The notes below the pieces were generated by a model. That model searched no databases, was not told the DNA's origin, and worked only from the letters and a program-made list of their open reading frames with translations. A stretch of 60,276 nt of DNA from Anaerolineae bacterium (GTDB taxonomy: Bacteria; Chloroflexota; Anaerolineae; Anaerolineales; Villigracilaceae). This document shows positions 1 through 28,676 of this stretch, piece by piece. A program made the translations under genes and the position numbers. Location of the stretch: contig QEXW01000129.1 of assembly GCA_003130845.1 (NCBI GenBank), positions 1-60,276 of the forward strand. Direction: 5' to 3'. Positions within the stretch are counted from its first letter, which is position 1. Each line of letters begins with the position of its first letter.

Positions 1-1
1 A

Positions 2-688: not shown

Positions 689-689
689 T

Positions 690-2408: not shown

Positions 2409-2424
2409 TAGCGTAATTCCCCGC

Positions 2425-2601
2425 ATGGTTGACAAGTTACAGCAGAAACAGGGTGGCCGCGGGGCCTCATTTTCTGATGAAACCATTTCCCAGTTGAAAC
2501 AATTGAACATTCCCGAGCGTCCACTTCCAGGGCGTTTCTCCCCTCATTCCTATCATTCCCCATTGAAGAGAAAAACTCATGATGAATATCCTGGAACTTG
2601 A
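2425..2601 (+). CDS. possible rho leader ORF (58 aa, uncertain)
   Basis: A short ATG frame begins about 10 nt after the predicted transcription start and runs through the whole rho leader, ending 20 nt inside rho in another frame. The product would be hydrophilic (starts MVDKLQQKQ, ends DEYPGT) and matches no family I recognise. There is no clear ribosome binding site. It could be a leader peptide that couples to rho autoregulation, as rho leaders are regulated in other bacteria, or simply an open frame. Only positional evidence supports it. Confidence 0.25.
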   Translation: MVDKLQQKQGGRGASFSDETISQLKQLNIPERPLPGRFSPHSYHSPLKRKTHDEYPGT

Positions 2602-3862: not shown

Positions 3863-3876
3863 GCCGTTCTGGGTAG

Positions 3877-8562: not shown

Positions 8563-8578
8563 GAAAACCTCGTAAAAA

Positions 8579-8606
8579 TACGCAATACGGGGGGCCGTAT
8601 TGCGTA
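8579..8606 (-). promoter_or_regulatory. perfect hairpin with T5 in the gyrA leader (attenuator-like)
   Basis: Two 12-nt arms (TACGCAATACGG and its exact complement) enclose a 4-nt loop. Read on the minus strand the hairpin sits between the predicted -10 box and the gyrA ribosome binding site and is followed at once by TTTTT. It therefore has the form of an intrinsic terminator inside the gyrA leader. As DNA it is also a 28-bp palindrome that could bind a dimeric regulator or extrude under supercoiling. Confidence 0.75.
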
Positions 8607-8632
8607 CGGTATATGCATATCTATCTCCCCCA

Positions 8633-8638
8633 ATTATA
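8633..8638 (-). promoter_or_regulatory. -10 box (TATAAT) of gyrA
   Basis: The minus strand reads TATAAT here, predicting a start near 8626 and a leader of about 64 nt that contains the hairpin. The -35 region is not well conserved. Confidence 0.6.
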
Positions 8639-8647
8639 CCAGACGCC

Positions 8648-8677
8648 TTGCCAAACTTGTGCTAGGTTTGATATGAT
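8648..8677 (+). promoter_or_regulatory. promoter TTGCCA-18-TATGAT for the NBR1-Ig lipoprotein
   Basis: TTGCCA at 8648-8653 and TATGAT at 8672-8677 with an 18-bp spacer point rightwards, 47 bp before the lipoprotein ATG. This promoter is back to back with that of gyrA. Confidence 0.5.
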
Positions 8678-8724
8678 GAAGGCGCTCGTGCCTTGCACTA
8701 TCTTGCTTGTCGAGAGAGATGGTT

Positions 8725-9417
8725 ATGAAGAGCGCTCGCTTAATTTTTCTTGGAACTCTGCTTGGGTTGGCTTCGCTGGCTTGTGTCATCACCATCCCCT
8801 TGCCTGGTGGTGCGCCACAGCCTACGTCAACGTCATTCGAGACGGCTACACCGCCTCCAACTGCCACTTTCACACTGGTTCCCAGCCGAACGCCCTTGCC
8901 CTCGCCGACGCGCCGCGAGGTTTCGACCGAGGCGGTCTATGCTTTTCCAACGATTACCCCTTTGTCGCCCATTCCAACCATGACCCTGCCGGTTATGCAA
9001 GAAACTTCAGCGCTGGGCACGTTTACCCCGACCAAAGCAGGCACGGTGGCAGTGAAAATTTATACCCCCACTCGTCAACCGCTCAAGTGTCGGGTGGACA
9101 TCGTCAAGCCAGAATACGGTGAAAAGGTTCTTGCCGGAAAGGATTTTGAAGTTGCCTGGCGCATTTACAATGAAGGCGGCAAAATTTGGATAATGAATGA
9201 GTTCTATTTTGATTTTGTCAGCGGCAAGCAAATGAGCAATCCGGGCTACGGTCCCAAATATCTTCCGTACACTGTTTTCCCTCGTGACCGCTTTCGGTTA
9301 AATGTACGCATGACTGCCCCGCGAGCGCCTGGCCTGTACACAGCCACCTGGGGAATGTGGCAAGTAGGGCGCGAAGAGCCGTTTTGCACGTTTTCTGTCA
9401 CAATCAAAGTGGAATAG
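8725..9417 (+). CDS. lipoprotein with NBR1-like Ig domain
   Basis: 230 aa. A signal peptide ends in a SLAC lipobox (Cys near residue 20), so the protein is probably lipid-anchored outside the membrane. A low-complexity Pro/Thr/Ser linker (about 25-105) resembles cell-surface spacer regions. The C-terminal part (about 120-230) matches the NBR1 central-domain Ig fold: FEVAWRIYNEGGKIW, then PRAPGLYTATWGMW. This fold is common in surface proteins of Chloroflexota. Start 8725 was chosen because GAGAG lies 6 nt upstream; ATG 8719 and TTG 8707 are in frame. Function unknown; a binding or cell-surface role is inferred. Confidence 0.82.
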   Translation: MKSARLIFLGTLLGLASLACVITIPLPGGAPQPTSTSFETATPPPTATFTLVPSRTPLPSPTRREVSTEAVYAFPTITPLSPIPTMTLPVMQETSALGTFTPTKAGTVAVKIYTPTRQPLKCRVDIVKPEYGEKVLAGKDFEVAWRIYNEGGKIWIMNEFYFDFVSGKQMSNPGYGPKYLPYTVFPRDRFRLNVRMTAPRAPGLYTATWGMWQVGREEPFCTFSVTIKVE

Positions 9418-9699
9418 CGGTGGAGATGGCGGTTTTTCATCTGTATTTGGAAGCAGCGCATATCTCCTAGATGATATGTCAATCGGCTTGGTCGGCAGGT
9501 CAGAGTGAGTGGGGGGCTGGTTCCAAGCGTTTGTGACAGAACTGGCTCCTTATGCAGGGCAAGCACATCTGCCGTACATTCTGCACTTCGTTTTTTTGGG
9601 GGCGCTTCCCGTCATCTCTGGGCGAATCTCTCACGGATGGCACCAACTAACAATTCGTGGGTATAATCTTCTCTCACTCGTTTACGCATAGGAGTCATT
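9418..9699 (+). promoter_or_regulatory. nadC upstream region with -10 box
   Basis: This 282-bp gap has no convincing gene. A perfect TATAAT at 9662-9667 is the likely nadC -10 box, with a predicted start near 9674. No NiaR, NrtR or riboswitch signature could be recognised by eye in the rest of the gap. Confidence 0.5.
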
Positions 9700-10536
9700 T
9701 TGGCCCCCTTACATCCTGATATTTTTGAAGCGATTCGGCGCGCATTAGCCGAAGATGTTGGCTCTGGCGATGTGACCAGCAACAGCATATTACCGGCCGA
9801 GGCTTGGATGCATGGTCAAATTATCGCCAAGCAACGTGGTGTCATTGCCGGTTTGGATGTCGCCGCGTTGGTGTTCCAGATGGTGGATGAGACGATTGCG
9901 TTTCATTCTGAGACACCGGAAGGCACGTGGGTTGAAAATGGCCAAGTGGTGGCCAGGCTGCATGGCCCGGCGCGCAGCTTGCTGACCGCGGAACGAACGG
10001 CGCTTAACTTCTTGGGGCGCGTTTCAGGCATTGCTACGCTCACGCGCCAATTTGTCGAAGCCGTTGCCGGCACCAAGGCCATCATCCTTGATACCCGTAA
10101 AACAGCCCCTGGCCTGCGTATGCTGGATAAACTCGCCGTCCAGCGTGGAGGTGGGCAAAATCACCGTCTGGGGTTGTACGATATGATTTTGATTAAAGAC
10201 AATCATATTGACTTTGCTGGCTCTATCACGGCAGCGGTGCAGCGTGCCCGGGCTGCCCAGAGCGGCTTGAAAATTGAAGTGGAAGCCCGCACCCTCGACC
10301 ATGTGCGCGAAGCCTTGTCGCTGGGTGTGGAGCGCATTTTATTGGATAATATGTCGCTGGAGATGATGCGCCAAGCCGTTCAACTGACTGCCGGACGTGC
10401 CACCCTGGAGGCCAGCGGAAATGTTTCACTTGAAACCGTGCGCGCTATTGCCGAAAGCGGGGTAGATTATATCTCTGTGGGTGCGCTTACACATTCTGCC
10501 AAAGTTTTTGACCTCAGCCTGGATTACATTCGCTAG
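9700..10536 (+). CDS. nadC: nicotinate-nucleotide pyrophosphorylase (carboxylating)
   Basis: 278 aa. Converts quinolinate and PRPP to nicotinate mononucleotide, CO2 and PPi in de novo NAD synthesis. Conserved stretches are LNFLGRVSGIATLT, ILDTRKTAPGLRMLDK, GGGQNHRLGLYDMILIKDNH and the C-terminal phosphate-binding EASGNVSLE and YISVGALTHS. The start is a TTG at 9700: AGGAG lies 5 nt before it and the first residues (APLHPDIFEAIRRALAEDVG) align with the family N terminus. It is the first gene of a nadC-nadA-nadB run, which makes the whole aspartate-to-NaMN route. Confidence 0.95.
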   Translation: MAPLHPDIFEAIRRALAEDVGSGDVTSNSILPAEAWMHGQIIAKQRGVIAGLDVAALVFQMVDETIAFHSETPEGTWVENGQVVARLHGPARSLLTAERTALNFLGRVSGIATLTRQFVEAVAGTKAIILDTRKTAPGLRMLDKLAVQRGGGQNHRLGLYDMILIKDNHIDFAGSITAAVQRARAAQSGLKIEVEARTLDHVREALSLGVERILLDNMSLEMMRQAVQLTAGRATLEASGNVSLETVRAIAESGVDYISVGALTHSAKVFDLSLDYIR

Positions 10537-11605: not shown

Positions 11606-13201
11606 ATGAAAACAACCGATATCCTTGTGATTGGTTCTGGCATTGCCGGTTGCGCTGCAGCGCTTGAACTTTCCAGCGACCCCTCGCGTCAGGTTATTCT
11701 CATCACCCGTGAACCTGACCCGCACGAATCGAATTCTAACTATGCCCAGGGCGGCATCATCTATCGCGGCCCCGATGATAGCGCGGATTTGCTGGTGCGA
11801 GACATATTGGAAGCCGGGGCGGGCGCTTCCTTGCCCGAGATAGCCAACATTTTAGCGCAAGAAGGCCCCAGGCGGCTGGAAAAACTCTTGATGACCGAAG
11901 CAGGCGTCCCTTTCGACCGGCATCCGCATGGCGAGCTGGCCTTTGGGCAAGAAGCCGCCCATTCTCGGCGGCGCATTCTGCATGTGGGTGATAGCACCGG
12001 TCGTAGTATCGTTGCGCATTTGTTAGAAGCCGTGCGCCGTCGCCCCAATATCGAGCTGTTGACCAATGCCACCGCTGTTGACTTAATTACCTATCCTCAT
12101 CATTCGCGCAACCCGTTGGATACGTATCGCTCAATCGCTTGCTATGGGGCTTATGTCTTTGACCGGAATGGGCGTGCTGTTCACCGCACGCTGGCCAAAG
12201 CCACCGTTCTGGCCACCGGTGGCTTAGGACGCATCTACCGTTACACCACCAATCCGCCCGGTGCGCGCGGCGATGGCTTGGCGATGGCGCATCGGGCGGG
12301 CGCGCGCATCATTAACGCGGAATATATTCAATTCCACCCGACGGCGCTTGCTGTTCCTGGGGCAGAGGGCTTTCTCATTAGTGAAGCCGTACGCGGCGAG
12401 GGCGGCATCCTGCTTACCCCGGATGGCCAGCCCTTTATGCAAAAATATGATCCCCACTGGAAAGACCTTGCCCCGCGTGATGTGGTAGCGCGGGCTATTC
12501 ATAGTGAGATGGAAGCCCAGGGCTATTCACATGTCTTGCTCGATATTGCTAGCCACATGCCGGCGGAACGCCTGCGGGCGCGTTTTCCCACCATCTATGC
12601 CACCTGTTGGAAAGTCGGCATTGATATTACCCGTGAACCCATCCCTGTTGTGCCAGCAGCACACTATTCTTGTGGAGGCGTTGCCGTAGATGAATGGGGA
12701 CAGACCAATATCCTCAATCTCTACGCGGTGGGTGAAGTGGCTTGCAACGGCTTGCACGGTGCCAACCGCCTTGCCAGCACCTCTTTGTTAGAAGGGCTGG
12801 TCTTTGGCGCACGTGCTGCCGAGCGGATTTTACAGCAGATTGACCACCTTTCTCATCCTGAACCAGATGCCATTCCCCCTTGGGATGAATCTAATCTTAT
12901 ACACGACTCCGACCCTGCCCTGATTCAGGGCGATATGCAGACCATTCAAAACATCATGTGGCACTATGTCGGGCTGATTCGTTCTGGTGACCGACTTTCG
13001 CGCGCCATTCGCGAACTGCGGCATCTTCAAAATGAAATTGAGACTTTTTATCGCAAAACCAAGCTGAGCGATGGACTGATTGGGTTACGAAACGCGGTTG
13101 AGACCGCTCTGCTGGTTGCCCAGGCGGCTCGTCACAACCGTCAGAGCCGGGGCTGTCATTACCGCACCGATTCGGTCAATGGTGGCGACCGCTTGCTATA
13201 A
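11606..13201 (+). CDS. nadB: L-aspartate oxidase
   Basis: 531 aa flavoprotein of the fumarate reductase/succinate dehydrogenase flavoprotein family. It makes iminoaspartate for NadA. The FAD-binding motif GSGIAGCAAALEL is at the N terminus. Active-site and family stretches include NYAQGG, EYIQFHPTAL, RGEGGILL, APRDVVARAIHSEM and HYSCGGVAVDEWG, with a helical C-terminal domain. ATG 11606 was chosen over an in-frame TTG inside nadA because the FAD motif begins soon after. The ribosome binding site is weak, and translation is probably coupled to nadA. Confidence 0.95.
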   Translation: MKTTDILVIGSGIAGCAAALELSSDPSRQVILITREPDPHESNSNYAQGGIIYRGPDDSADLLVRDILEAGAGASLPEIANILAQEGPRRLEKLLMTEAGVPFDRHPHGELAFGQEAAHSRRRILHVGDSTGRSIVAHLLEAVRRRPNIELLTNATAVDLITYPHHSRNPLDTYRSIACYGAYVFDRNGRAVHRTLAKATVLATGGLGRIYRYTTNPPGARGDGLAMAHRAGARIINAEYIQFHPTALAVPGAEGFLISEAVRGEGGILLTPDGQPFMQKYDPHWKDLAPRDVVARAIHSEMEAQGYSHVLLDIASHMPAERLRARFPTIYATCWKVGIDITREPIPVVPAAHYSCGGVAVDEWGQTNILNLYAVGEVACNGLHGANRLASTSLLEGLVFGARAAERILQQIDHLSHPEPDAIPPWDESNLIHDSDPALIQGDMQTIQNIMWHYVGLIRSGDRLSRAIRELRHLQNEIETFYRKTKLSDGLIGLRNAVETALLVAQAARHNRQSRGCHYRTDSVNGGDRLL

Positions 13202-13220
13202 GCGGCCAAAGGACGAACTC

Positions 13221-13967
13221 ATGCAATCTCAGTTTCCCCTTGCGCTTATCACCGGTGCGGCGCATCGCCTAGGGCGCGCTTTGGCCCTGACGCTCGCCCG
13301 CCGTGCTTATGCCATTCTGCTGCATTATCACTCTTCCGAAAGGAAAGCCGGGCAAACTGCACTGGAGGTAAGCACCCTGGGGGTCCCCGTTTTTCCTTTT
13401 CGCGCCGACTTAACCGACCCGACTCAAATTGACGCGATGTTTGGCTTTCTCGATACTCTGTTGGCCGACCCTGCCAATCGTTTGACCGGTTTGCACGTTT
13501 TAGTCAACTCGGCAGCCATCATGCGCACGGGGGACTTGCGTTCCATGAATCTTGCGAGCTGGAACGAAATTTTTGACTTGAATTTGCGCGCGCCGTTTTT
13601 GTGCGCCCAATCCGCGTTTCGGCGCATGAAGCCGGGCAGTTTAATTGTTAATATGAGCGATATTGCTGCCGAAAAAGTCTGGACGCGCTATGCTGCTTAC
13701 ACCGTCAGCAAAGCTGCTTTAGAATCACTTACCCGCCTGATGGCGCGCGCGTTTGCGCCACAGGTGCGGGTGAATGCCATTGCGCCAGGCTTGGTGTTAC
13801 CTTCGGATGACATGCCGCCGGAAGACTGGAGCCGCCTGGTTTCGCGCCTGCCCATCCAACGCGCTGCACATCTTGATGAAATTACCCGCTCGCTTGAATT
13901 TTTGCTCGATAACGAATATATTACCGGACAAACCATTGCCGTTGATGGCGGCTACTCACTTTTGTAA
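13221..13967 (+). CDS. short-chain dehydrogenase/reductase, pteridine-reductase-like
   Basis: 248 aa. A classical SDR with NAD(P)-binding motif TGAAHRLGRA, of the TGxxxRxG form typical of pteridine reductases and FolM-type dihydromonapterin reductases. It also has the NSAA motif and an active site with Ser, Tyr and Lys in YAAYTVSKAAL, ending DGGYSLL. AAAGGACG precedes ATG 13221. It is embedded in a nad-to-moeA operon, so a role in folate or pterin reduction next to pterin (molybdenum) cofactor work is plausible. Substrate is inferred from one motif only. Confidence 0.85.
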   Translation: MQSQFPLALITGAAHRLGRALALTLARRAYAILLHYHSSERKAGQTALEVSTLGVPVFPFRADLTDPTQIDAMFGFLDTLLADPANRLTGLHVLVNSAAIMRTGDLRSMNLASWNEIFDLNLRAPFLCAQSAFRRMKPGSLIVNMSDIAAEKVWTRYAAYTVSKAALESLTRLMARAFAPQVRVNAIAPGLVLPSDDMPPEDWSRLVSRLPIQRAAHLDEITRSLEFLLDNEYITGQTIAVDGGYSLL

Positions 13968-13982
13968 TGCTGGAGAATTTGC

Positions 13983-14462
13983 ATGCCCGACACCCCCGCT
14001 TTCCTTGCCCAGCGCCTGATGACTGAAGGCGAGAAGGCGCTCGCCTTTTTTTCCAACCTGAAGCCTGAACACTGGCACATTCCCATTTATTCTGAAGGTG
14101 AAATCTGGACCGTGCGCAGTGTCCTGGCGCATTTTGTCACTGCCGAGCGTGGTTTTCTGGAATTGTTTGCCGATATACGCTCTGGTGGTATGGGGGCCTC
14201 GGAGGACTTTGATATTGACCATTACAATGCGCATCAGCAACAAAAGACAAGCACCCTTTCACCCGCCGATTTGCTCGCACAATTCCGTGCTGTTCGTGCG
14301 GAAATGACTGCCCTGGTTGCTTCTTTCACCGAAGATGACCTCGCCAAACAAGGCCGCCACCCTTTTCTTGGTCTGACCACATTAGCAGAAATGGTCAAAA
14401 TGGTCTATCGTCATAACCAAATCCATCTGCGCGACCTGCGCCAATTGCTGGTTGAGCCTTGA
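13983..14462 (+). CDS. DinB/YfiT-like four-helix metal protein
   Basis: 159 aa. The DinB/MDMPI fold shows three expected metal-ligand histidines: one in SVLAHFVTAER near residue 44 and two in YRHNQIHLRDL near the C terminus. Members include thiol-dependent transferases (bacillithiol or mycothiol S-transferases) and many unknowns. GGAG lies before ATG 13983. It is 15 bp after the SDR and 3 bp before the next gene, inside the nad-moeA operon. The thiol or other substrate cannot be told from sequence. Confidence 0.82.
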   Translation: MPDTPAFLAQRLMTEGEKALAFFSNLKPEHWHIPIYSEGEIWTVRSVLAHFVTAERGFLELFADIRSGGMGASEDFDIDHYNAHQQQKTSTLSPADLLAQFRAVRAEMTALVASFTEDDLAKQGRHPFLGLTTLAEMVKMVYRHNQIHLRDLRQLLVEP

Positions 14463-14465
14463 CCT

Positions 14466-15347
14466 ATGCTCTCACTCAATATCATCGTCCGTCTAATGCG
14501 CCCGATTCACTTGCTGTTAGCCTTGCTAGCGTATGGTCTTGGTTTGGGAATTGCCCGCTATCTGGGTGGCGTGTTGAACCCCCTCACCCAAATTGCAACA
14601 GGGATGGCTCTGCTGTTTCTTCTGGCTGCTTCTAGCTTGCTTGTGGACTATTTTCGCCGGCCCGATGACCCAATTTTACCTGCGGAAACACGCCAGCAGC
14701 GGGAAGTATTACGTCCTATCTTGCTGGCGGTTAGTGCGGCTTTTTTGGCAGTTGGCGCGTTGTTGGCCTTTTGGCTCTACCTGCAAGGTCACCTGACGGT
14801 TAATAACGCTTTACTTTTTGTGTTGTATCTCTTGCTTTGCCTATCACTGGCTGTGCCGCCTGTGCGTTTGATAGAACGGGGCATTGGGGAAATTGTGCTG
14901 GCTTTTCTCTTGGCGGTTCTCACTCCCGCCATTGCTTTTTTGCTGATGTTTCCTGGTTTGCATCCCTTTCTGCGCGGGTTCACCTTCCCTCTTTTTTTGC
15001 TGGCTCTGGCATGGCAGCTAGCAATTTCCTTTGAGCAATACCCGAATCATCTCAAGTATGGACGGCGGGTCTTACTGGTGCGATTAAGTTGGCAAAAGGC
15101 AATACCACTGCATAATAGCCTGCTGGTTGCTGCTTATTTTTTTCTGGCGATGTTGCCTTTTCTGTCGGTTCCATTTCACTTAACTTGGCCGGCTTTACTC
15201 ACGCTGCCGCTTGCGGCTTGGCAGGCTCTCATGTTGCGCAACATTGCGGATGGCGCCAAACCGGTTTGGAATGCTCTCAACATCGCCGCAACAGCGGTTT
15301 TTGGCCTGACCTCTTACCTTATCACAATCACCTTCTGGTTACGCTGA
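14466..15347 (+). CDS. UbiA-like polytopic membrane protein, degenerate motifs
   Basis: 293 aa with about eight or nine predicted membrane helices. The N terminus RLMRPIHLLLALLAYGLG resembles UbiA/MenA prenyltransferases, and the segment near residues 191-208 (HLKYGRRVLLVRLSW) resembles the DxxxGKRTLAVRLG part of their second motif. The usual NDxxDxxxD motif is replaced by VDYFRRPDDP and the second aspartates are missing. It is either a diverged prenyltransferase or a non-catalytic relative. It lies in the nad-moeA operon with 3 bp before it and 30 bp after. Confidence 0.6.
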   Translation: MLSLNIIVRLMRPIHLLLALLAYGLGLGIARYLGGVLNPLTQIATGMALLFLLAASSLLVDYFRRPDDPILPAETRQQREVLRPILLAVSAAFLAVGALLAFWLYLQGHLTVNNALLFVLYLLLCLSLAVPPVRLIERGIGEIVLAFLLAVLTPAIAFLLMFPGLHPFLRGFTFPLFLLALAWQLAISFEQYPNHLKYGRRVLLVRLSWQKAIPLHNSLLVAAYFFLAMLPFLSVPFHLTWPALLTLPLAAWQALMLRNIADGAKPVWNALNIAATAVFGLTSYLITITFWLR

Positions 15348-18588: not shown

Positions 18589-19101
18589 ATGGATGTCGCT
18601 GAATCTATTCGCACCAAGCGTGCTGTGCGCAAATTTCTCGAGAAACCGCTCTCAGATGAGGAAGTTCGTATTATTCTCAATGCTGGGCGGCGCTCACAAT
18701 CTTCAAAAAATACCCAAGCCTGGCAGTTCATTGCTATTCGAGACCGACAAATTTTGAAGGCGCTCTCCACTTGTGGGGAATGGGCGGGTCATCTGGCCGG
18801 GGCAGCCTTGGGCGTAGCGATACTAACACCTGACCCAACAGCTAAATTTCAGACGATGTTTGATGCTGGGCAAGCCGCTGCCTATATGCAATTGGCTGCC
18901 TGGGAATTGGGCATTGGCTCTTGCCCTGCTTCTATTTACGAGCCAGAGCGAGCGCGTGAGCTTTTGGGCTTTCCGTCGGAATGGCATTTGCGCATCGCGC
19001 TCTCCTTTGGTTATCCGGCGGATGAAGAGGTGCTGACTGCCGCACCCCGTAAAGGAGGCCGGCGCGCGTTTGATGAAGTGATACATTGGGAGCGCTGGTA
19101 G
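18589..19101 (+). CDS. nitroreductase family protein
   Basis: 170 aa, short for the FMN-dependent nitroreductase family. The N terminus IRTKRAVRKFLEKPLSDEE and the FMN-phosphate segment RRSQSSKNTQAWQFIAI are typical, as is the later DAGQAAAYMQLAAWELGIGSC. It should use NAD(P)H to reduce nitro compounds, quinones or flavins, or act as a dehydrogenase. AGGAG lies 13 nt before ATG 18589, a longer spacing than usual. The histidine kinase gene starts 22 bp downstream, so it may be the first gene of that signalling cluster. Confidence 0.87.
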   Translation: MDVAESIRTKRAVRKFLEKPLSDEEVRIILNAGRRSQSSKNTQAWQFIAIRDRQILKALSTCGEWAGHLAGAALGVAILTPDPTAKFQTMFDAGQAAAYMQLAAWELGIGSCPASIYEPERARELLGFPSEWHLRIALSFGYPADEEVLTAAPRKGGRRAFDEVIHWERW

Positions 19102-19123: not shown

Positions 19124-22100
19124 ATGTCAAGTACCACCACGAATGTTGTGCGGTTGAACGAAGCAAAGCGCATCCGCCTGTTTTACAATTTCACCAAGAC
19201 GTTACATGAATTGGTCAACCTGCCGGTGAGTATCTGGATTCCCGATAAGCAACGCCGACAGTTGCGGATGGCGGCCTTTCAGGGTATGCCGGCAGTATTG
19301 AAAGAAGAGGCTGTGGTCTTCTTGCATGAAGCCGATGTGATAGCGGATGTTTTTCGCTCGATGAAGGCAGAAGTTATCTCGGACGTTTTGCGTGAACCAC
19401 GCTGGAAGCACAAAAAAGAAGCCATGGAGCAGGGGTGGGTTTCCGTGCTGTGTGTGCCGATTGTGGTCAACAGACAAGCCGAAGGTGTGATGACCTTGCA
19501 CGCCGGTCCTGGCCGCACAGGCAACTTAAATAGCCTAAAGACGCTCGCCGATAATTTCGTCAACCAAATTGCGCTCACCATTGAGGTCGAAAACCGGCGT
19601 GTGGTGTTAGAAGCGCTCATGCACATCAGTCAAAAATATGAAATTGTCTCGGAGAACTTGCGTGAGATTTTGCAGGGGATTGTCAAAGCGAGCTGCGAAG
19701 TGCTGGGAGCCGATTGCGCCGTTTTGTATCCGTTCGATGCAGAGCGCGAGTGGTATTATGACCGGGCGCATGTTGTTCATCATGGCTTAGTGACGCCGCT
19801 TGAGTTGAGTGAAAAGCCGCGTGTGAAATGGAGTATGGCAAGCCAGGTCATGCGGGAGGGGGAACTGGTGATTAATGACCTGGCAAGTGAGTATCCGCAA
19901 CGTTTGCATGACCATTTTATTGTCCGTGAGGGTGTGAAAGCGTTTATGGCAATTGCGCCGCGCGCAAACAACATTGGGTTAGGCTTATTGTTTATCAACT
20001 ATCGCACGCCGCACCGCTTTACCGAGGAAGAGAAAAATTCCATTCGCTTGTTTGCGCACCAAGCCGGGATTGCCATTCATAATGCCCAATTGTTTCGCCG
20101 CTCTCAACGTCAGGCAAGAGCACTCAAGGAATTGCATGAAATTGGCTCTGGGCTGTTGTCCATTCCCTCCCGGAGAAAACTCAAGGATGTTTTAGACGAA
20201 GTGGCTCAAACGGCCCTGAAGGTTTTAGGCGCCGATTTGGTTGACCTATATCACTACAACGAGGAAGAAGACCGCTTTCTCCTGCCGCCTTCGCTGGCCG
20301 GAAGCCGTAGCAGCCCTAGCCCAACGGCTATTTATAAAGATGACGTACTCTACCAACTGTTGGATGTACGTCAACCCATGTACATCACTGATTCGCAGCA
20401 TGATCCGCGTACCAACGGCCCCTTTCAACCCAACCGCCCTGCCGATACCCGCACGCGCCAGCGGTTCGTTGTCCGGGAAGGCATTCAATCCACCGCTGCG
20501 ATTCCGCTGATGGTGGCAGGCAAGACGGTTGGGGCTTTATTCATCAATTATCGTACACCCCAGACGTTCCCTGCGCACCAAAAAGAACTTATCGAAATTT
20601 TTGCTGCCGAGGCAGCGATTGCCATTGCCAATGTCATGCTTTACGAAAGCTCGCGAAAACGAGCCGAAGCGCTGAGTCGCTTGAACAGCGTATCCGAAAA
20701 CCTGATTCAACTGAGCGAAGGCAAAGCAGACCTACCGCGCTTGCTGACGCAGGTGGCCGAGGGCGCTTTGGAAGTGTTAGATGCCGATTTGGTGGATGTA
20801 TATCAATACGAGCAAAACCGAAATATCTATCTTATGCCGGTCATCGAGGCCGGACAGCGGTATCAGCCGATAGATAGACATGTGGTTTCTCGCGCCGATA
20901 TTGCTCGTAGGGTTTTGGAAGATGGTCGTCCCTGGTATGTGCATGATGCGCTTGGCGAGCCGATTTTAACTAGACCGCGTGAAGGGTCTGCAGAGCAAAT
21001 AAAAGAGCGCTTTGTGGTGCGGGAAAAAATTCAATCTATGGCAACCGTGCCGATGAAGATTGGCAATGAAGTGGTCGGCGTGCTGTTCGTCAGTTATCGC
21101 CAGCGACAGAGTTTCTCTGGGCCTCAGCGTGAATTGATTGAGCTTTATGCGGCGCAGACGGCGCTGGCCATCCGCAACGCACGTTTGCTTATCCGCCGCA
21201 AGGCATTGATTGAATCGGGCAATTTGTTAGCCTCCCAGGTGACACGTTCGGAACGTGAATTGCTTCATTTGGTTTATCAGCAGATTGACCGATTCATGGA
21301 TAGCCGCAATTTGACCATTGCTCTGTACGATGCTGAAAACAATGAAATTCGCCCCGCACTGGTTGTGCGCAATGGGCAGACGTTATCTGTCTTGGGGTGG
21401 GAAGCATCCAAGCATTGGCAGGCGCACATTAAACCTATCCTAGATTCCCGTCAGACGGTTTTTTCTTCCAAGCGCGCTGAACTGGATGCAGGGCATCTTT
21501 TACCCAATGAGGTCTTCTTCTCTTCTTGGATTGGCGCTCCCATGTTGGCCGGTGACCGTACCTTAGGAGCAATTGTGGTGTATCACGAGCGGGAGAATAC
21601 GTATACGATAGATGATATTTCTGTTTTACAGACAATTGCCAACCAAACCGCTGCTGCTTTAGAAAATGCGCGGCTTTACAACCAGGCGCGCAGTGAAGTG
21701 TTGGCCGAAAGACAGCTGGCTACGTTAGGGCGTGCGATGGCTGCTCTGGAACATCGCATTAACAATACGCTCAGCATCATTCCTCCCAATTTGGTGCGCT
21801 TGCGCAATCGTTTAGACACAAAAGATGATGAACTCGAAGAGATTCTGAGCATTATCGAGCGCAACACCCGCTACACTGCCACCCTGCTCAAGCGCATTCG
21901 CGCCCCGTTGTTGGAGGTTCATGCCGAGGAAGTGGATATCAATGCCCTGTTGCGTGAGATTTTCGAGGAACAACGTCATGAGTGGACAGCAGACCGCACC
22001 CGCTGGTTGGTTGAGGCCTCGATAGAAACTGCCCCCGATTTACCGCAAGTCTCTTTGCCCAAAGGACAAATTGCCGAAGTGTTTCACAACCTGATTCAAA

Positions 22101-22456
22101 ATGCTTACCGCGAACTCGATAAAGCGCATAAACGGCTGCATGCCTACCGCGATCGGATTCCGCCTGGTCTTTCGTTTGGTGGTGCGAAAATTCAGGTGTG
22201 GACTGCACTGGAGGATGGAAAAATTTGCGTGCGGGTCAAAGATAACGTGCCAGGGGGCATTTCGCCCAAAATCCAATCACGCTTGTTTGCCAAGCCGGTT
22301 TCTCCTGCCAATCAAGAAGAAGGTTCTGGTTTGGGGTTGTGGTTAAGCAAAATGATAATGGATAGCCTAGGTGGTGACATTCGGATTGAAAGCACAGGTT
22401 TGCTCGGTACCACGATGTTGGTTGAAATTCCATTGTCGAAAAATGGGGAAGGCTAG
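19124..22456 (+). CDS. soluble histidine kinase with five GAF domains
   Basis: 1110 aa, no membrane helices. Five GAF domains span about residues 15-155, 165-325, 340-510, 520-690 and 700-860. GAF2-4 share the phrases FxVREGxxS and LFINYRTPxxF, showing internal duplication. A HisKA-type region follows with the likely phospho-His877 in ALEHRINN, then an HATPase_c domain with N box NLIQNAYREL, G1 KDNVPGGI and G2 GSGLGLWL. It should sense small molecules or redox state in the cytoplasm. The stop is 2 bp before the receiver-kinase gene, its obvious partner. GAGG precedes ATG 19124. Confidence 0.93.
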   Translation: MSSTTTNVVRLNEAKRIRLFYNFTKTLHELVNLPVSIWIPDKQRRQLRMAAFQGMPAVLKEEAVVFLHEADVIADVFRSMKAEVISDVLREPRWKHKKEAMEQGWVSVLCVPIVVNRQAEGVMTLHAGPGRTGNLNSLKTLADNFVNQIALTIEVENRRVVLEALMHISQKYEIVSENLREILQGIVKASCEVLGADCAVLYPFDAEREWYYDRAHVVHHGLVTPLELSEKPRVKWSMASQVMREGELVINDLASEYPQRLHDHFIVREGVKAFMAIAPRANNIGLGLLFINYRTPHRFTEEEKNSIRLFAHQAGIAIHNAQLFRRSQRQARALKELHEIGSGLLSIPSRRKLKDVLDEVAQTALKVLGADLVDLYHYNEEEDRFLLPPSLAGSRSSPSPTAIYKDDVLYQLLDVRQPMYITDSQHDPRTNGPFQPNRPADTRTRQRFVVREGIQSTAAIPLMVAGKTVGALFINYRTPQTFPAHQKELIEIFAAEAAIAIANVMLYESSRKRAEALSRLNSVSENLIQLSEGKADLPRLLTQVAEGALEVLDADLVDVYQYEQNRNIYLMPVIEAGQRYQPIDRHVVSRADIARRVLEDGRPWYVHDALGEPILTRPREGSAEQIKERFVVREKIQSMATVPMKIGNEVVGVLFVSYRQRQSFSGPQRELIELYAAQTALAIRNARLLIRRKALIESGNLLASQVTRSERELLHLVYQQIDRFMDSRNLTIALYDAENNEIRPALVVRNGQTLSVLGWEASKHWQAHIKPILDSRQTVFSSKRAELDAGHLLPNEVFFSSWIGAPMLAGDRTLGAIVVYHERENTYTIDDISVLQTIANQTAAALENARLYNQARSEVLAERQLATLGRAMAALEHRINNTLSIIPPNLVRLRNRLDTKDDELEEILSIIERNTRYTATLLKRIRAPLLEVHAEEVDINALLREIFEEQRHEWTADRTRWLVEASIETAPDLPQVSLPKGQIAEVFHNLIQNAYRELDKAHKRLHAYRDRIPPGLSFGGAKIQVWTALEDGKICVRVKDNVPGGISPKIQSRLFAKPVSPANQEEGSGLGLWLSKMIMDSLGGDIRIESTGLLGTTMLVEIPLSKNGEG

Positions 22457-22458
22457 TT

Positions 22459-24048
22459 ATGCGTGGAAAAATACTGGTTGTGGATGACCTACCTGATGTG
22501 CGCAGCACGGTGAGCGGACTGTTGCGGGATGCGGGCTATCTCACCTGGTTTGCTGCTTCGCGCCAGGAAGCGCTCGATATATTGGAAACCGAGCATTTTC
22601 ATCTGGCTGTTTTAGATGTTCGCTTGGATGAAAGCGACGAAGATAACCGCGAGGGTATGGACTTGTTGCGAGACATCAATCAGCGCTACCCGGCCATAGC
22701 CGTCATTATGCTAACCGGCTATGCCGATGCTGATATGGTGCGTCAGGCCTTGCAGCCGGTGAATGGCCGCCAACCTGCGTACGGAGTGGTCTTTAAGCAG
22801 GAGATGACCGTCTTGCCCGATATGGTTCGGATGGCTTTTCAGGAGCATTTGCATCTAAATTTGGAACTTGTGATTGACGACCCTCACCAGTCCATTGAAA
22901 AGCTAGCCGAGCGTATCCGTTTGGTGGGCGACCATATCCCCTTGCGTGAGGATATTCTTTTGCAAATCCGTGAACTGTTTGGAAAGCTATTCTTCGAGTG
23001 CGAGCGCATTCGCTTAGGACAGATGCAGCAAGGCTTTAGCGGCGCAGCGGTGTTTCATGTTGTCCCAACATATCGTGAGCGGGGTGAAGGTCAGAGCGTG
23101 GTTGTCAAAATCGGTGAGCGGCACGAGATTAAGACAGAAATTAGAAATTACGAAAAATATGTGCGGGGTATCGTGGGCAATCACCGCATTCCTGAAGCTT
23201 TGCGCATGGCCGAAACGCACAACCTGGCCGGGATTTGGTACTCGTTTATCGGTTTGGGAGGGCAACCCGATACCTTTACAAACTATTATCATTCCGCCTG
23301 GCTGCCCGATATTTTGCCCGTTCTGGATAATCTCTACCGCGAGACGCTTTTTCCCCTCAAAGACCGCACCGGGCGAATGAAGGAAAAATATGACTTGCGT
23401 GCCTTTTACATGCAACACCTGCACTTGACCGACGAAAAATTGCGTTCGATTGTGACAGGTCTTGATGCGCGACAAGCAATTTTTAGCGAACAACCAGATG
23501 GCTCTTGGCTCTTTGGCACAGAGCGCCTTCCTAATCCTTTGCACTATGCGCGCACAGGAAATTTTTGGGCAGATGTCTTTTTTGCCACCATTCACGGCGA
23601 TTTGAATGGCCAGAATATCCTGATTGACCCGCACCACGATACTTGGCTGATTGATTTCCTGACCACAACCGATGATGGTCATATCTTACAAGATTATGCT
23701 GCCTTAGAAACCCATCTTCGCTTTCGCCTGGTGCGTGAAGCGGGCTGTAGTCTTGAAACGTTATTACACTGGGCGCAAATTTGCTTCAATGGCAATTTGC
23801 AGCATGTTCCCTTATCGGCGGTCGTTTACGACCATCCGGGTTTGCTCAAAGCACATCAAGTGATGCTTCACCTGCGTGCGTTGGCTGCGCAAAGCACAGG
23901 CTATACCGACCGCGCTTATTTGATTGCATTGTTTTTCAACACCCTGCGCTCGGCCACCTATCGTGAAGCAAGTGATTTCACGCGCAATCATGCCCTGTAT
24001 TGTGCAGCAAAAATTGCTGCGCGTTTGAATGCGTATTCAGGAAGTTAA
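22459..24048 (+). CDS. response regulator receiver fused to an APH/choline-kinase-like domain
   Basis: 529 aa. Receiver domain at about 1-125 with acidic pair D9/D10, phospho-acceptor D53 in LAVLDVRLDE, T86 and K113. After a helical linker (about 130-200) comes a kinase-like domain of the aminoglycoside phosphotransferase/choline kinase type: candidate ATP lysine in SVVVKIGERHE, catalytic loop H379-G-D381-L-N-G-Q-N386 and metal Asp399 in LIDF. All key residues are present, so it may be active. There is no DNA-binding domain, so the output would be phosphotransfer or a kinase-fold protein interaction. GGGGAAGG precedes ATG 22459. The substrate is unknown. Confidence 0.85.
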   Translation: MRGKILVVDDLPDVRSTVSGLLRDAGYLTWFAASRQEALDILETEHFHLAVLDVRLDESDEDNREGMDLLRDINQRYPAIAVIMLTGYADADMVRQALQPVNGRQPAYGVVFKQEMTVLPDMVRMAFQEHLHLNLELVIDDPHQSIEKLAERIRLVGDHIPLREDILLQIRELFGKLFFECERIRLGQMQQGFSGAAVFHVVPTYRERGEGQSVVVKIGERHEIKTEIRNYEKYVRGIVGNHRIPEALRMAETHNLAGIWYSFIGLGGQPDTFTNYYHSAWLPDILPVLDNLYRETLFPLKDRTGRMKEKYDLRAFYMQHLHLTDEKLRSIVTGLDARQAIFSEQPDGSWLFGTERLPNPLHYARTGNFWADVFFATIHGDLNGQNILIDPHHDTWLIDFLTTTDDGHILQDYAALETHLRFRLVREAGCSLETLLHWAQICFNGNLQHVPLSAVVYDHPGLLKAHQVMLHLRALAAQSTGYTDRAYLIALFFNTLRSATYREASDFTRNHALYCAAKIAARLNAYSGS

Positions 24049-24213: not shown

Positions 24214-26250
24214 ATGAACAAGAGTTTGTTTTTTTTAAGTATTGTCTTAATCCTTTCTTTGGCTTGTAATTTTCTCGCTGGCATCGCTCCGAATGGACAA
24301 CCTGCCAATGCCACAAGCACGCCTCTCAGTACAACCAGTGATGGATTTTATGCCGAAGTTGTAGATGGTGGAGTGACTCTCAAATGGGATGCTGTGAGTG
24401 GTGCCGAGCAATACTGGGTTGAACTGCAAGTCGGCGATGATTTTATTCCCTTAGCGGTGCTTCCAGCAGACCAGTTGACTTATCTTGATAGCGTTTTTGA
24501 TGGGGCACAGTACACGTATCGCTTGACCATCGTGGGTGATTCCGTCCGGACGAAACCCAAAACGGTGAAAGTTTTGGTGCCAGAAGAGCAAAGCGATCCG
24601 CAATCGGTCACGCTTGCTTTCGACATGGCCCCGCCCGCGATTGACCTGAACAATTTGGATTGGAGCCAAATTGACCCAAAGAGCCTGGAATCGGGCAATT
24701 TTTACTCCTCAATGTTTGCGCCGACATTTATTCAATCGGAAGCGAAAATCGGGCCAGAGGGCGGTGAATTGTCTGTGACCGGTGCGAATGGCGTGACGTA
24801 CACACTGACCGTACCTCCTGGCGCGCTGGCTTTCCAGACAACAATTAGACTCAAGCCGATTTCTACAATTCCCGATTTGCCCTTGAGTGGAGGCGTATTG
24901 GGGGCAGTATTTATTGAACCCCAGGAAATCGTTTTCGATCTTCCGGCGACCCTAAAAATGTTTCCTCCGAGTGACTTCTCTCCTCCTGCCGACTTATTGC
25001 AGGTTGGGTTTGGTTTTGAGGACGATGGCCAGGAATTTCATCTGTATCCTCTTGACCCGGAATCTTTTCGAAGTTCCAAGGATACTCTCGTTGCCAGCTT
25101 AAGTATGGTCCCTCTCCCTGCTCCACCGCTTTCTGATATTGCGAAACTGCAATATGGAGGCGGCTATGGGGTAGGAAGCGGTACGGTTTCGGATGTCAAG
25201 AAAGTCAAAATGCCTGCCAAAGCGGCCAATCGCGCTGCCCAGCGTGCTGCGCGCGCCCAAATGGATGAGTTGGCTCCCCTTACATCAATCGAGCCGCTTG
25301 CTCCTTTGCCCAACCTGCCGCCCGAAGCGGCTCGGTTTCAAAAAATTGGTGAAGCAATCCGTCAGAAGGTGGATAAAGCCAATGATTGGAATAGTCTGAT
25401 GGATGTTCTGGATGAGTTTAGGATGTACTTGGATTTAGGGGGGGATAAATTTAACAAGAGACTGAATGCTGAAATCCTAGACCAGCTGGTTGACAAAATT
25501 AAAGCCTTTCTGGAAAAAGCCAGAAAAGATTGTCTTTCGGTAGAAGAAATGAAAGTGCAGGAACTTATCCGCCGACTTGGTAATCCCAAAAGGGGAAATT
25601 TTGACCAGGCGCTGACTGAACGATTCAAAGAGAAGTTTGGCGAGAATCTCTTAAATAATCTGTTATCAGGATCGAAAGATTGTGTTTTCACTTTGGATGG
25701 GTATTCGAATCTGACGTTTGAAGTCGAGCAATCGATTATGTTTGTCACGATGAAAGTGCAAGGGCTGGTGTTATATGTTGGATACCACAAGGGGGATGTT
25801 TTTCTGCATGGGGACAAACAGATGACTCTGGAAGTGAGCATTTCTGGGCATGGCTGCAATTTCCCAGTTAAGCAATATACCAACCTGGATTTGGTTGTTA
25901 GCCGTTTGACCCCAATCTATGTCGCAGGGGTATTAAGAGATTTTACTCTTCAAATGAGCGTGAATGGCTGGGTTGCGCAGCAGGGTGGTGCGTTCATCGG
26001 ACAAGGGGATTGCCCAATAGCGTATCATCTGGATGGAGGAGGGGATTTTTGGACCGCCCTGTTCACGATATCTAGAATGGCACATGCAGATTATTCGATA
26101 AGCGGCTGGAAAATTACAGGTGGGCCGTTGATTAAAGGCGTGCCTTTGACGGCCAAGTGGGAGGCAGTTGACCCGACATTTTCTCCTAGAGAGGGCGTTG
26201 TGATGAGCGAAACCAGTCATTTTACGCTGAAAGGGACGCCGAGCAGGTAA
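24214..26250 (+). CDS. large surface lipoprotein with FN3-like and ZU5-like domains
   Basis: 678 aa. The signal peptide ends in SLACN (Cys near residue 18), so the protein is probably lipidated and extracytoplasmic. An FN3-like module covers about 45-130 (VTLKWDAVSGAEQYWVEL). A segment near 175-280 resembles a ZU5/GAIN-associated fold: IGPEGGELSVTGANGVTY, TVPPGAL, TTIRLKPI. A Lys/Ala-rich helical middle (about 325-500) and a beta-rich C terminus follow, with no recognised family. A cell-surface binding or sensing role downstream of the kinase pair is only inferred from position. Confidence 0.75.
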   Translation: MNKSLFFLSIVLILSLACNFLAGIAPNGQPANATSTPLSTTSDGFYAEVVDGGVTLKWDAVSGAEQYWVELQVGDDFIPLAVLPADQLTYLDSVFDGAQYTYRLTIVGDSVRTKPKTVKVLVPEEQSDPQSVTLAFDMAPPAIDLNNLDWSQIDPKSLESGNFYSSMFAPTFIQSEAKIGPEGGELSVTGANGVTYTLTVPPGALAFQTTIRLKPISTIPDLPLSGGVLGAVFIEPQEIVFDLPATLKMFPPSDFSPPADLLQVGFGFEDDGQEFHLYPLDPESFRSSKDTLVASLSMVPLPAPPLSDIAKLQYGGGYGVGSGTVSDVKKVKMPAKAANRAAQRAARAQMDELAPLTSIEPLAPLPNLPPEAARFQKIGEAIRQKVDKANDWNSLMDVLDEFRMYLDLGGDKFNKRLNAEILDQLVDKIKAFLEKARKDCLSVEEMKVQELIRRLGNPKRGNFDQALTERFKEKFGENLLNNLLSGSKDCVFTLDGYSNLTFEVEQSIMFVTMKVQGLVLYVGYHKGDVFLHGDKQMTLEVSISGHGCNFPVKQYTNLDLVVSRLTPIYVAGVLRDFTLQMSVNGWVAQQGGAFIGQGDCPIAYHLDGGGDFWTALFTISRMAHADYSISGWKITGGPLIKGVPLTAKWEAVDPTFSPREGVVMSETSHFTLKGTPSR

Positions 26251-26331: not shown

Positions 26332-26697
26332 TTAGAGCAGGCCAAGTTTCTTAAGCGCTTGCTCCAATGCATCTACGGTCACCGGTTTGACGAGGAAATC
26401 ACGCGCGCCGGCCTGGATGGCGTTGGTGCGGGTTTGGGGTTGGTCATCCGAAGTGCAGACAATGACCGGCACGTTGGCTAGGCGCGGTTCGCGGTTGGCA
26501 AAGCTCAAAATATCAAAACCGGTCACCCCTGGCATGTTAATGTCCAAAAAAATTACGTTGGGAGTTTCCGCACGCAAAATGGCCATGGCTGGTCCAGGGC
26601 CATAGGCTGGACGCGCTTGAATCCCCAATGCTTTCAAAACACGCACCATTGAATCTGCTGTAGAACGATTGTCATCAATTACAAGTGCTTGAATCAT
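26332..26697 (-). CDS. stand-alone response regulator receiver domain
   Basis: 121 aa, a bare CheY-like receiver with no output domain. D8/D9 form the acidic pair, D52 in IFLDINMPG is the phospho-acceptor, T82 follows VIVC, and K104 sits in FLVKPV. Its ATG overlaps the stop of the MoeA-PBP gene by 4 bases (ATGA), so it is translated with that gene. No partner kinase is adjacent on this strand; the nearest kinases are at 19124-22456 and 36848-39118. It may act as a phosphate relay or bind a target protein. Confidence 0.93.
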   Translation of the reverse strand: MIQALVIDDNRSTADSMVRVLKALGIQARPAYGPGPAMAILRAETPNVIFLDINMPGVTGFDILSFANREPRLANVPVIVCTSDDQPQTRTNAIQAGARDFLVKPVTVDALEQALKKLGLL

Positions 26698-28676
26698 GAA
26701 TTTGCCTCCGCAATGATTGTTCCCATGATGCTTGTATCATACCCTGGAAGTGCGTTTACAGCATGTTGGAATGATTGCGATTGAATTACTTCAAATAAAG
26801 GCTGTAATAACTCACTCGCTGCGTATTGTTGGGGAATGACCAGGTCGTAGCGTTCGTGAAAAAGAGGGATGAAATCGAGCTCTAGGGCGTATGCTGCCGC
26901 CGGAATGCCCAGACCGCAATCGGCGCGGCCAGATGCGACTGCAGCTGCTACACCCAGGTGAGTGTATTCTTCTTCATCATACCCGCGAACCTGTTCCGGT
27001 GCAATCCCCAAGAGGCTCAGTTGATAATCGAGCAAAACTCTCGTTCCTGCGCCTCGCTGCCGGTTGATGAAGGTAACCTCCTGTCGCAGCAGGTCATGCA
27101 ATGAACGTATGCCTTTGGGGTTGCCTTTGCGTACAATCAGCCCTTGTTCACGGCGCACAAATCCTATCAATTTAACCGGCAGGTTGGGTAGGTAGCGGGC
27201 AATATACGTGAGATTGTATTCGCCGGTTTGCGGGTCGAGCAGATGAGAGCCGGCGAGATGTGCCTCACCACGCCGGAGTGCAACCAAACCACCTTGTGAG
27301 CCTACGTTGGCCGAAACCAACCGTCGGTCGTATGCGCTAAGGTGCTGCGCCAGCAAATCCAGGATAACATCATGGGAGCCGACGCAGAAAATGGTCTGTT
27401 CGATGTCGCTTAACGGGCGCAGTAATTGCACTTGAACATTCTCGCCCGCTTCTGCTCCTTGTACACCCTGCGGTAACACCACCAATCCATCGGCGCGCAC
27501 CAGCGAAGTGATGACTCCCGCGCCGCGTGCAATCGGCGCAGCCAGTGTTTTCTCACCCACCTTGCCAACCACTACCCGCACAAAATCATCGTCCCCTGGC
27601 GGAGAGACTGTTTTGCGAGTCAGGCTGGCAGAGATGACGGGTGGTTTTGTGATGCGTCGTCCTAGCCAGCGTGCGATTAGTTCTTCCACAAAGATTTCTA
27701 CTGTCAAGGCAGCAGAAACGGGATACCCTGGAACCCCAATGATTGGGATTTTCGCGGTGGAGGTTGTGTTGGTTGAGGACCGATGAATCATCCCCAAAAT
27801 TACAGGATGCCCAGGGCGGACGGCAACCCCGTGTACCAACAGGTCGCCCAGCGCTTCGACAACCCGCGCCGAGAAATCTTCGCTCCCCGCCGAAGACCCA
27901 GCGTTGAGCAAGACCAGGTCGCATGTTTCGGCGGCCTGCTGCACGCGAGCGCGGATGGCTTGGAAGTCATCGGGGGTGATGGGAAAACGCACCGGTTCGC
28001 CGCCCATTGCCCGAATTTGCGCTGCCATGACCAAGGAGTTGTATTCGAGAATATCCCCTGGTTTGAGTTCTGTGCCGAGTGGCACCAATTCTGTGCCTGT
28101 AGGCAAAATGGCAATGCGGGGACGACGTGCGACAACCACTGCGGTATGCCCGGCCGCGGCAATTGCACCCAGGTCATACGGTTTTAATACGTGCCCGGCC
28201 GACAATACCAGTTGTGTGGCAACGATGTCCTCTCCCAACGGGCGAACATTGCTCCAGGGTGTGACCGATGCGCGCAGCCGAATCGCAACTGGATGACGCG
28301 GGTCAGTCGCTATTTCTCCCTGGGCATTCAGCGGCTCGACATTTTCGATGGGGATGACAGCGTTGGCCCAATCGGGCAACGGGTCTCCTGTATCCACGTA
28401 GGCGGCCTGTGCCCCCATTTGTAGTTGAATCGGAGCCGATGGCATGGCACCGTTTGTGGCTTCTGCGCGAATGGCAAACCCGTCCATGGCGCTGGCGTGG
28501 TAATGCGGAGAAGATTTTAGCGCCCAAATTGGTTGTGCCAAAACGCGCCCGAGAGCGTGCTCATCAAGTGGGATATGTTCACTTCCTAATACCCGCCACA
28601 GACCGGCTTCCTGCAATGCGCTTTGCAGCCGTTGTTTGGCTTCAGCGAGGGGAATATCATGAAGGTAGATGGTCAT
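26694..28676 (-). CDS. MoeA fused to a PBP-like (LysR-type substrate-binding) domain
   Basis: 660 aa. Residues about 1-405 form a complete MoeA-like molybdopterin transferase (YHASAMDGFAIRA, VDTGDPLPDWANAVIPIE, LLNAGSSAGSEDFSARVV, IIGVPGYPVSA). Residues about 415-655 are a periplasmic-binding-protein fold of the kind attached to archaeal and some bacterial MoeA proteins (IFCVGSHDVILDLLAQHL, NRQRGAGTRVLLDYQL, SGRADCGLGIPAAA). The second part may bind molybdate or tungstate for insertion. A -10 box ends 8 nt before ATG 28676 with no ribosome binding site, so the transcript is probably leaderless. Its 3' end overlaps the receiver gene. Confidence 0.93.
   Translation of the reverse strand: MTIYLHDIPLAEAKQRLQSALQEAGLWRVLGSEHIPLDEHALGRVLAQPIWALKSSPHYHASAMDGFAIRAEATNGAMPSAPIQLQMGAQAAYVDTGDPLPDWANAVIPIENVEPLNAQGEIATDPRHPVAIRLRASVTPWSNVRPLGEDIVATQLVLSAGHVLKPYDLGAIAAAGHTAVVVARRPRIAILPTGTELVPLGTELKPGDILEYNSLVMAAQIRAMGGEPVRFPITPDDFQAIRARVQQAAETCDLVLLNAGSSAGSEDFSARVVEALGDLLVHGVAVRPGHPVILGMIHRSSTNTTSTAKIPIIGVPGYPVSAALTVEIFVEELIARWLGRRITKPPVISASLTRKTVSPPGDDDFVRVVVGKVGEKTLAAPIARGAGVITSLVRADGLVVLPQGVQGAEAGENVQVQLLRPLSDIEQTIFCVGSHDVILDLLAQHLSAYDRRLVSANVGSQGGLVALRRGEAHLAGSHLLDPQTGEYNLTYIARYLPNLPVKLIGFVRREQGLIVRKGNPKGIRSLHDLLRQEVTFINRQRGAGTRVLLDYQLSLLGIAPEQVRGYDEEEYTHLGVAAAVASGRADCGLGIPAAAYALELDFIPLFHERYDLVIPQQYAASELLQPLFEVIQSQSFQHAVNALPGYDTSIMGTIIAEANS

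Follow-up and report, generated by a model that had tools for sequence, protein, structure and literature searches.

A soluble histidine kinase adjoining a receiver-fused, kinase-fold response regulator in an Anaerolineae bacterium

The gene pair and its two proteins

Two adjacent genes on the forward strand of contig QEXW01000129.1 (assembly GCA_003130845.1, from an Anaerolineae bacterium) encode a soluble histidine kinase (HK) and a response regulator (RR) in which a receiver (REC) is joined to a TCAD9 domain of predicted kinase fold; this pair is the subject of the present analysis. The window refers throughout to the whole stretch of 60,276 nucleotides that was analysed, and the nearest named relative of its genome is the Anaerolineales metagenome-assembled genome SKYG2 (Chloroflexota). 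The HK gene (19124..22456, 1110 amino acids) ends in a TAG stop codon at 22454-22456 and the RR gene (22459..24048, 529 amino acids) starts with the ATG at 22459, leaving a spacing of 2 bp. An earlier note, made from the sequence alone, had described this layout, and both its open reading frame (ORF) coordinates and its spacing were recovered here. A putative Shine-Dalgarno-like sequence, GGGGAAGG (22445..22452), lies within the 3' end of the HK gene, 6 nt 5' of the RR ATG. Both genes are supported by the ORF list and by Pfam, the first additionally by an ortholog with the same neighbour (same-genus locus L125) and the second by its predicted structure.

The kinase carries five GAF stretches followed by an H-box and a HATPase_c domain (residues 983-1105, 22070..22438; PF02518, E 2.2e-12), and no HisKA model was listed for it in the Pfam scan. 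The predicted phosphorylated His is residue 877, in the motif HRINN (codon 21752..21754); the H-box with its His and the ATPase motifs are common to all 10 aligned HK cores. No 19-residue stretch exceeds a Kyte-Doolittle mean of 1.76 in the HK or 0.98 in the RR, which indicates no strong membrane segment in either protein. The five-GAF soluble kinase that had been proposed is upheld, with H877 as its predicted phosphorylation site.

The receiver occupies approximately residues 5-125 of the RR (22471..22833), with a Pfam Response_reg match over residues 5-99 (5.4e-16), and includes the acceptor Asp, D53 (codon 22615-22617), and K113. The output domain, at approximately residues 163-529 (22945..24045), matches TCAD9 (PF19974) in two stretches at 4.7e-32, and the whole-protein score of 112.1 bits is far above the gathering cut-off of 40. 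The match to the APH family proper (PF01636) is sub-threshold (0.0027; 17.9 bits versus a cut-off of 23.2), and we therefore rejected the idea of a classic APH enzyme; some relatives do exceed this cut-off, e.g., L065:12116-13690 at 31.2 bits. NCBIfam likewise returned kinase matches for the output domain, all of them sub-threshold, and a sequence search of PDB chains with RR residues 178-529 gave 0 matches at E up to 10.

AlphaFold2 models were built with 11 sequences. The full-length RR model has a mean predicted local distance difference test score (pLDDT) of 87.4 and a predicted TM-score (pTM) of 0.82. Since VIA-align of this model listed solved receivers (Z up to 20.6), a model of the output domain alone was made from residues 140-529 (pLDDT 87.1, pTM 0.88). 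With this domain model, Foldseek placed APH(3') enzymes, the choline kinase LicA and glucosamine kinase in its top eleven matches (E between 4e-6 and 1.1e-5), their TM-scores by query being no higher than 0.31-0.44. The best VIA-align row was LxmK, part of the lexapeptide dehydratase complex (Z 17.2, root-mean-square deviation 3.7, 279 aligned), together with glucosamine kinase (Z 16.4; 4.8, 306), PsiK (16.4; 4.5, 287), methylthioribose kinase (15.9; 5.2, 298) and mycobacterial maltose kinase (15.6; 4.8, 287). The best 50 rows, spanning Z 17.2 to 13.9, are, judging by title or general background, all kinases or phosphotransferases of the APH/protein-kinase-like superfamily. From the Foldseek and VIA-align matches the TCAD9 output domain is predicted to have a fold of the APH/choline-kinase type. 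The kinase fold had been part of the earlier note, and structure comparison, set beforehand as the check that could overturn it, returned this very fold. A substrate class is not readable from a modelled fold of this kind. The window domain resembles APH, choline kinase, maltokinase and glucosamine kinase enzymes in predicted fold and catalytic residues, and is unlike them in its low identity (~9-18% in the listed alignments) and in its fusion to a receiver.

Conservation of the pairing and of the catalytic residues

Relatives were compared in a set of 49 REC-TCAD9 rows, made up of the window and rows of 76 fetched regions (20+20+20+16), a portion of all hits. Six duplicate loci (L055, L065, L105-L108) were taken out before counting, near-identical pairs from different genomes were retained (L124/L142 at 99%, L111/L114 at 87%), and L145, where Pfam lists no receiver, was counted by means of a custom hidden Markov model (HMM). 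Genes in the relatives were called by a longest-ORF heuristic, so that neighbours and gap lengths are approximate. Five fetched loci outside the class, found later and unused in rule-setting, served as a hold-out; G199, G774, G780 and a second G778 match are not among them.

The pairing of an HK with REC-TCAD9 is the rule in these relatives. In 37 of the 49 loci the immediately preceding same-strand gene is an HK, and an HK lies within three same-strand upstream genes in 45/49, versus 0/19 for TCAD9 proteins without a receiver. One of these 19 rows has an HK gene within four genes, not upstream on its own strand, and the receiver-less row L121:2231-3283, truncated at a contig edge, groups among the REC rows in the tree. 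All five hold-out loci have an HK directly upstream. The four loci without a counted HK are L127, at a contig edge; L130, in which an HK is present and an opposite-strand ORF was called between; L146, on a 3.6-kb contig; and L145, whose receiver lacks D53 and K113 and around which the nearest four genes to each side include no HK, a weak HK-like ORF lying farther off in the locus. Counting the window, D53 is kept in 48/49 receivers and K113 in 47/49. The gene-neighbourhood search suggested by the earlier note thus returned the same arrangement repeatedly. The note also knew of no characterised example of this exact pair, and we likewise found none in the open-access literature searched (subscription papers and supplements lay outside it), but the architecture is recurrent and not unique.

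Seven positions of the output domain (K217, E227, H379, G380, D381, N386 and D399) are all kept in 43 of the 43 REC-TCAD9 proteins that have no C-terminal winged helix. From this conservation we predict K217 (codon 23107..23109) to be the ATP-binding Lys and H379-G-D381 to N386 (23593..23616) to be the catalytic loop, while D399 (codon 23653..23655) would, by analogy with kinases, be a DFG-like metal-binding Asp. The key residues picked out beforehand, D53, H877, a candidate Lys (K217), H379-G-D381, N386 and D399, all stand where they had been placed and are conserved. Conversely, K217 and D381 are lost in all six proteins in which a Trans_reg_C-type winged helix follows TCAD9. The hold-out agrees, with the residues intact in 4/4 proteins without the winged helix and lost in the 1/1 with it (L177). 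The winged-helix proteins fall together on one side of a branch (support 100), numbering 6 rows in a first tree (built without two too-short rows) and 7 in a second (built also without three long-branch rows). Loss of catalytic residues across homologues, which had been named beforehand as evidence against a kinase-like output, is therefore absent from the 43 and found only in this one winged-helix clade. It would appear that the TCAD9 family can lose catalysis when the output turns DNA-binding, and that the window lineage has not done so. Among the TCAD9 rows without a receiver, 15/19 show all of K, E, HGD, N and D; of the exceptions, L071 stops short of the motif, and in L119, L121:1-2227 and L153:12407-15000 the matched segment does not include the N-terminal part, the last also having a changed N and D.

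Chance juxtaposition or mis-annotation of the pair is ruled out by synteny with L125, by purifying selection and by the recurrence of the architecture in relatives. The order nitroreductase-HK-RR is also present in L125, where RR identity is 77%. Ratios of non-synonymous to synonymous substitution between the window and L125, which are rough because synonymous sites are near saturation, are 0.054 (nitroreductase), 0.046 (HK) and 0.094 (RR), and those of three other neighbours range over 0.072-0.135; inside the RR the receiver gives 0.14 and the remainder 0.077, placing the TCAD9 part within the range of the measured neighbours. Promoter-like sites are at about background and terminator-like sites below it.

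The nitroreductase-family gene (18589..19101, forward strand; PF00881) lies 22 bp upstream of the HK and is possibly co-transcribed with the pair. Such a gene is also present in L131 (12860-13573), where it follows the REC-TCAD9 cluster, while in the window and L125 it precedes the HK. On the other side, 165 bp after the RR, lies a gene for a 678-aa probable lipoprotein (24214-26250) with no Pfam match above cut-off; it was rejected as part of the system because it does not adjoin the RR in L125. Beyond it, on the reverse strand (26332-28676), a standalone receiver gene (26332-26697) and a MoeA-PBP_like fusion gene (26694-28676) share 4 bp, the start of the former lying over the end of the latter, and in L125 no receiver adjoins the counterpart of this fusion gene.

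TCAD9 was found above its Pfam cut-off in 15/151 genomes of the order, and the TCAD9 part of the window RR was matched at E up to 1e-5 in 70/396 genomes of the class, many over the catalytic region only. Across the phylum, the A6 profile at E up to 1e-15 gave 10/301 genomes. Of the 10 genomes of the same genus that were searched, G009 alone showed a close window ortholog. Outside the phylum, a scan with close-subfamily patterns returned receiver-region matches only. A phage- or plasmid-borne cassette was also considered and rejected: no relative was found in viral_contigs (A4 patterns) or in plasmids (tblastn), and gene order is kept in L125.

Related loci and their effectors

Among the relatives whose neighbourhoods are complete, the closest (L126, L128 and L129) carry a GAF-HK, a short receiver-like gene, a second receiver, REC-TCAD9 and REC-CHAT. 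Three loci with related HKs (L133, L134 and L135) have a fusion of a receiver with an SLFN_AlbA_2-type domain in the position of REC-TCAD9, followed again by REC-CHAT; SLFN_AlbA_2 was called by Pfam in L134 and through a custom HMM in L133 and L135 (3e-91 and 2e-90). CHAT is caspase-like, and seven REC-CHAT proteins checked by pattern had the His motif in six cases, the Cys motif in six and both in five; we take these motifs to be the CHAT catalytic dyad. With PADLOC at E up to 0.01 the HK had no match, matches of the window RR were confined to the receiver region (best 1.6e-4), and the L128 REC-CHAT matched BovA (2.6e-6) and SAVED_CHAT (3.6e-4), both in the CHAT part. Two relatives have further genes of note close by, Trypco1 in L129 and, in L131, an EAD7-REC gene with a weak match (21.1 bits versus a cut-off of 32).

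Some further features of these loci were noted. The short receiver-like proteins after the HK in L126 (9196-9549) and L128 (9594-9944), read by eye, seem to be without the usual acceptor Asp and are possible pseudo-receivers. In six relatives the gene just before the GAF-HK encodes a protein of ~446 aa matching only tRNA-synt_2c (alanyl-tRNA synthetase): L126:3562-4929, L128:3918-5210, L129:4935-6275, L134:5386-6726, L135:2946-4289 and L133:1-729 (242 aa, contig edge). It may be a part of the module or a housekeeping gene. Adjoining the L126 cluster is a DNA polymerase III alpha gene (1-3460) with intein-splicing and LAGLIDADG matches.

A second, more distant locus type comprises a Band_7-like gene, an unassigned gene of ~370 aa, S1-REC-GAF-HK, REC-GAF-HK, REC-TCAD9 and an AAA ATPase, the Band_7-like label resting on a Pfam match in L056, with none listed for the L128 copy. 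L126 and L128 have both locus types side by side, and the window's own genome carries a cluster of the second type on another contig, C136 (L056). For the ATPases the matching models are AAA_16, NACHT, nSTAND or NB-ARC, with several of the matches sub-threshold. A same-strand AAA gene lies at most two genes downstream of 23/43 intact REC-TCAD9 proteins versus 0/6 winged-helix proteins, and 12 of those 23 ATPases themselves bear a winged helix. A CHAT domain was found in 4/49, either within the protein itself or no more than two genes downstream. Searching the window genome with the L128 protein gave no REC-CHAT, only two partial CHAT-region matches (C119 4.3e-11, C136 1.3e-8) and receivers.

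TCAD9 was also seen in other combinations. Receiver-less fusions occur in L069, L148, L159 and L153, that of L069 reading TCAD9-NB-ARC-TPR. In L148:6744-9089 TCAD9 is fused to a dual-specificity phosphatase-like domain, uniting kinase and phosphatase in a single protein, and L159:5298-9245 is a 1315-aa Pkinase-TCAD9-TIR-AAA_35 protein. L153 holds three TCAD9 paralogs at one locus (433-4404, 6472-10431 and 12407-15000), the first being TCAD9-NACHT-FGE-sulfatase. L150:6589-11063 encodes REC-TCAD9-CHAT with a weak TIR match (0.0013) at its end, the receiver being called by custom HMM and not by Pfam at the limit used; an ORF overlapping its 3' end matches DUF4277/DDE transposase, suggesting an insertion there.

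The window pair looks like a pared-down form of a modular system of Chloroflexota, one where receiver-fused effectors are served by a GAF-type kinase. Tentatively, and with somewhat more doubt than confidence, one could picture a two-component hub in which the GAF-HK controls interchangeable receiver-fused effectors of the conflict or programmed-death type (TCAD9, CHAT, Schlafen AlbA_2), with an AAA/STAND regulator as the kinase's partner and the window as a minimal, kinase-only form.

Interpretation and significance

TCAD9 stands for ternary complex associated domain 9, a name that refers to MoxR-vWA ternary systems according to a figure legend (PMC10910872). By Pfam the window output domain is a member of this family, but it is fused to a receiver and stands beside an HK. 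No MoxR or vWA gene was found among the 17 window proteins scanned (which do not take in every ORF between 9.7 and 31.2 kb), and the pair was accordingly rejected as a MoxR-vWA ternary system. The related loci share with such systems the APH-type kinase, CHAT, TIR, NACHT/STAND ATPases, FGE-sulfatase and, weakly, EAD7. Kaur et al. 2020 (PMC7159879) report APH-superfamily kinases among ternary-system effectors and no HK domains among the vWA-associated ones, and Kaur et al. 2021 (PMC8195603) regard the receivers of these systems as HK-independent; here, in contrast, HKs adjoin receiver-fused effectors. Our open-access search found no description of HK-linked REC-TCAD9, REC-CHAT or REC-Schlafen, and no experimental work on TCAD9. 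The usual output of a response regulator is a DNA-binding or cyclic-nucleotide domain, and enzymatic outputs are known in GGDEF, HD-GYP and CheB regulators; as in these, a receiver would gate an enzyme in the window RR, and unlike in these, that enzyme is an APH-type kinase. The pair would represent two-component signalling whose output is a kinase of the conflict-system type. The HK-RR pair is best read as related to conflict or stress effectors.

We think it fairly probable that the pair is a cytosolic two-component system whose output is enzymatic rather than directed at DNA, and in which the HK signals through D53 to a catalytically competent TCAD9 phosphotransferase whose target is most likely a protein. 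The GAF array would sense a soluble signal; the HK would then autophosphorylate on H877 and pass the phosphoryl group to D53, as the intact motifs and operon pairing suggest. The phosphorylated receiver would switch the attached APH-type kinase domain, and TCAD9, to judge by its fold and the strict conservation of its catalytic residues, would move the gamma-phosphate of ATP to a target. That this target is a protein and not a free metabolite is the weakest step; in the relatives it would plausibly be the neighbouring AAA/STAND ATPase or another member of the module. A protein is favoured by the recurrent ATPase partner, by the phosphatase fusion, and by the pseudokinase clade, where the winged helix sits directly on TCAD9 and the AAA gene is absent, as if the step from kinase to regulator had been bypassed. 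The proposed TCAD9/AAA-winged-helix arrangement would be similar to AfsK-AfsR of Streptomyces, in which a kinase acts on a STAND/NOD-type ATPase carrying a DNA-binding domain; AfsK itself, a Hanks-type kinase, has no receiver and takes no input from an HK.

Several points weigh against this reading. The winged-helix proteins lie on one supported branch, so that their loss of catalytic residues probably amounts to about one evolutionary event and not seven, and the AAA contrast follows the same clade. Gathering the loci by similarity to the window TCAD9 domain biases the set towards intact sequences. Neither the window pair nor its L125 ortholog is adjoined by an AAA or CHAT gene, and a search of the window genome found a single full AAA relative, in the C136 cluster. 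Moreover, most of the nearest folds to the domain model act on small molecules.

This last point leads to an alternative that we regard as unlikely, namely that TCAD9 phosphorylates a small molecule (a sugar, or a nucleotide-like or antibiotic-like compound) under HK control, making or removing a signal. Besides the solved fold relatives, which are largely small-molecule kinases, it draws on the low-molecular-weight substrates suggested for the ternary-system APH domain by Kaur et al. 2020 (PMC7159879). It sits poorly with the recurrent protein partners and fusions (AAA/STAND, CHAT, TIR, protein phosphatase) and with the place of LxmK, the top structural row, in a peptide dehydratase complex, and no recurrent transport or metabolic partner stood out among the subset of neighbours scanned. 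Less likely still, in our view, is an ATP-binding scaffold or pseudo-enzyme, with receiver phosphorylation altering partner binding and no phosphate moved. One TCAD9 clade (6/49 rows and L177) has indeed lost its catalytic residues and carries a winged helix, and most kinase domains of ternary conflict systems have disrupted catalytic residues according to Kaur et al. 2020 (PMC7159879); yet all seven positions are kept in every REC-TCAD9 protein without the winged helix, hold-outs included, and a pure scaffold need not retain K217, D381 and D399 jointly. That the receiver is a nucleotide-responsive switch with an incidental HK neighbour, as might be supposed from ternary-system receivers that occur apart from histidine kinases (Kaur et al. 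2021, PMC8195603), is very improbable given the near-constant HK linkage, in hold-outs too, and the conservation of D53 and K113.

If the reading as an HK-controlled TCAD9 phosphotransferase is true, a His-Asp relay switching an ATP-dependent kinase would join two phosphorylation chemistries in a single bacterial protein. The relatives further suggest direct HK input into effector types that the literature cited above describes as HK-independent. The family also offers a natural experiment: proteins with a fused winged helix have lost the catalytic residues and have no AAA gene downstream, and those without one keep the residues and commonly have an AAA gene, a contrast that makes the choice between kinase and scaffold directly testable.

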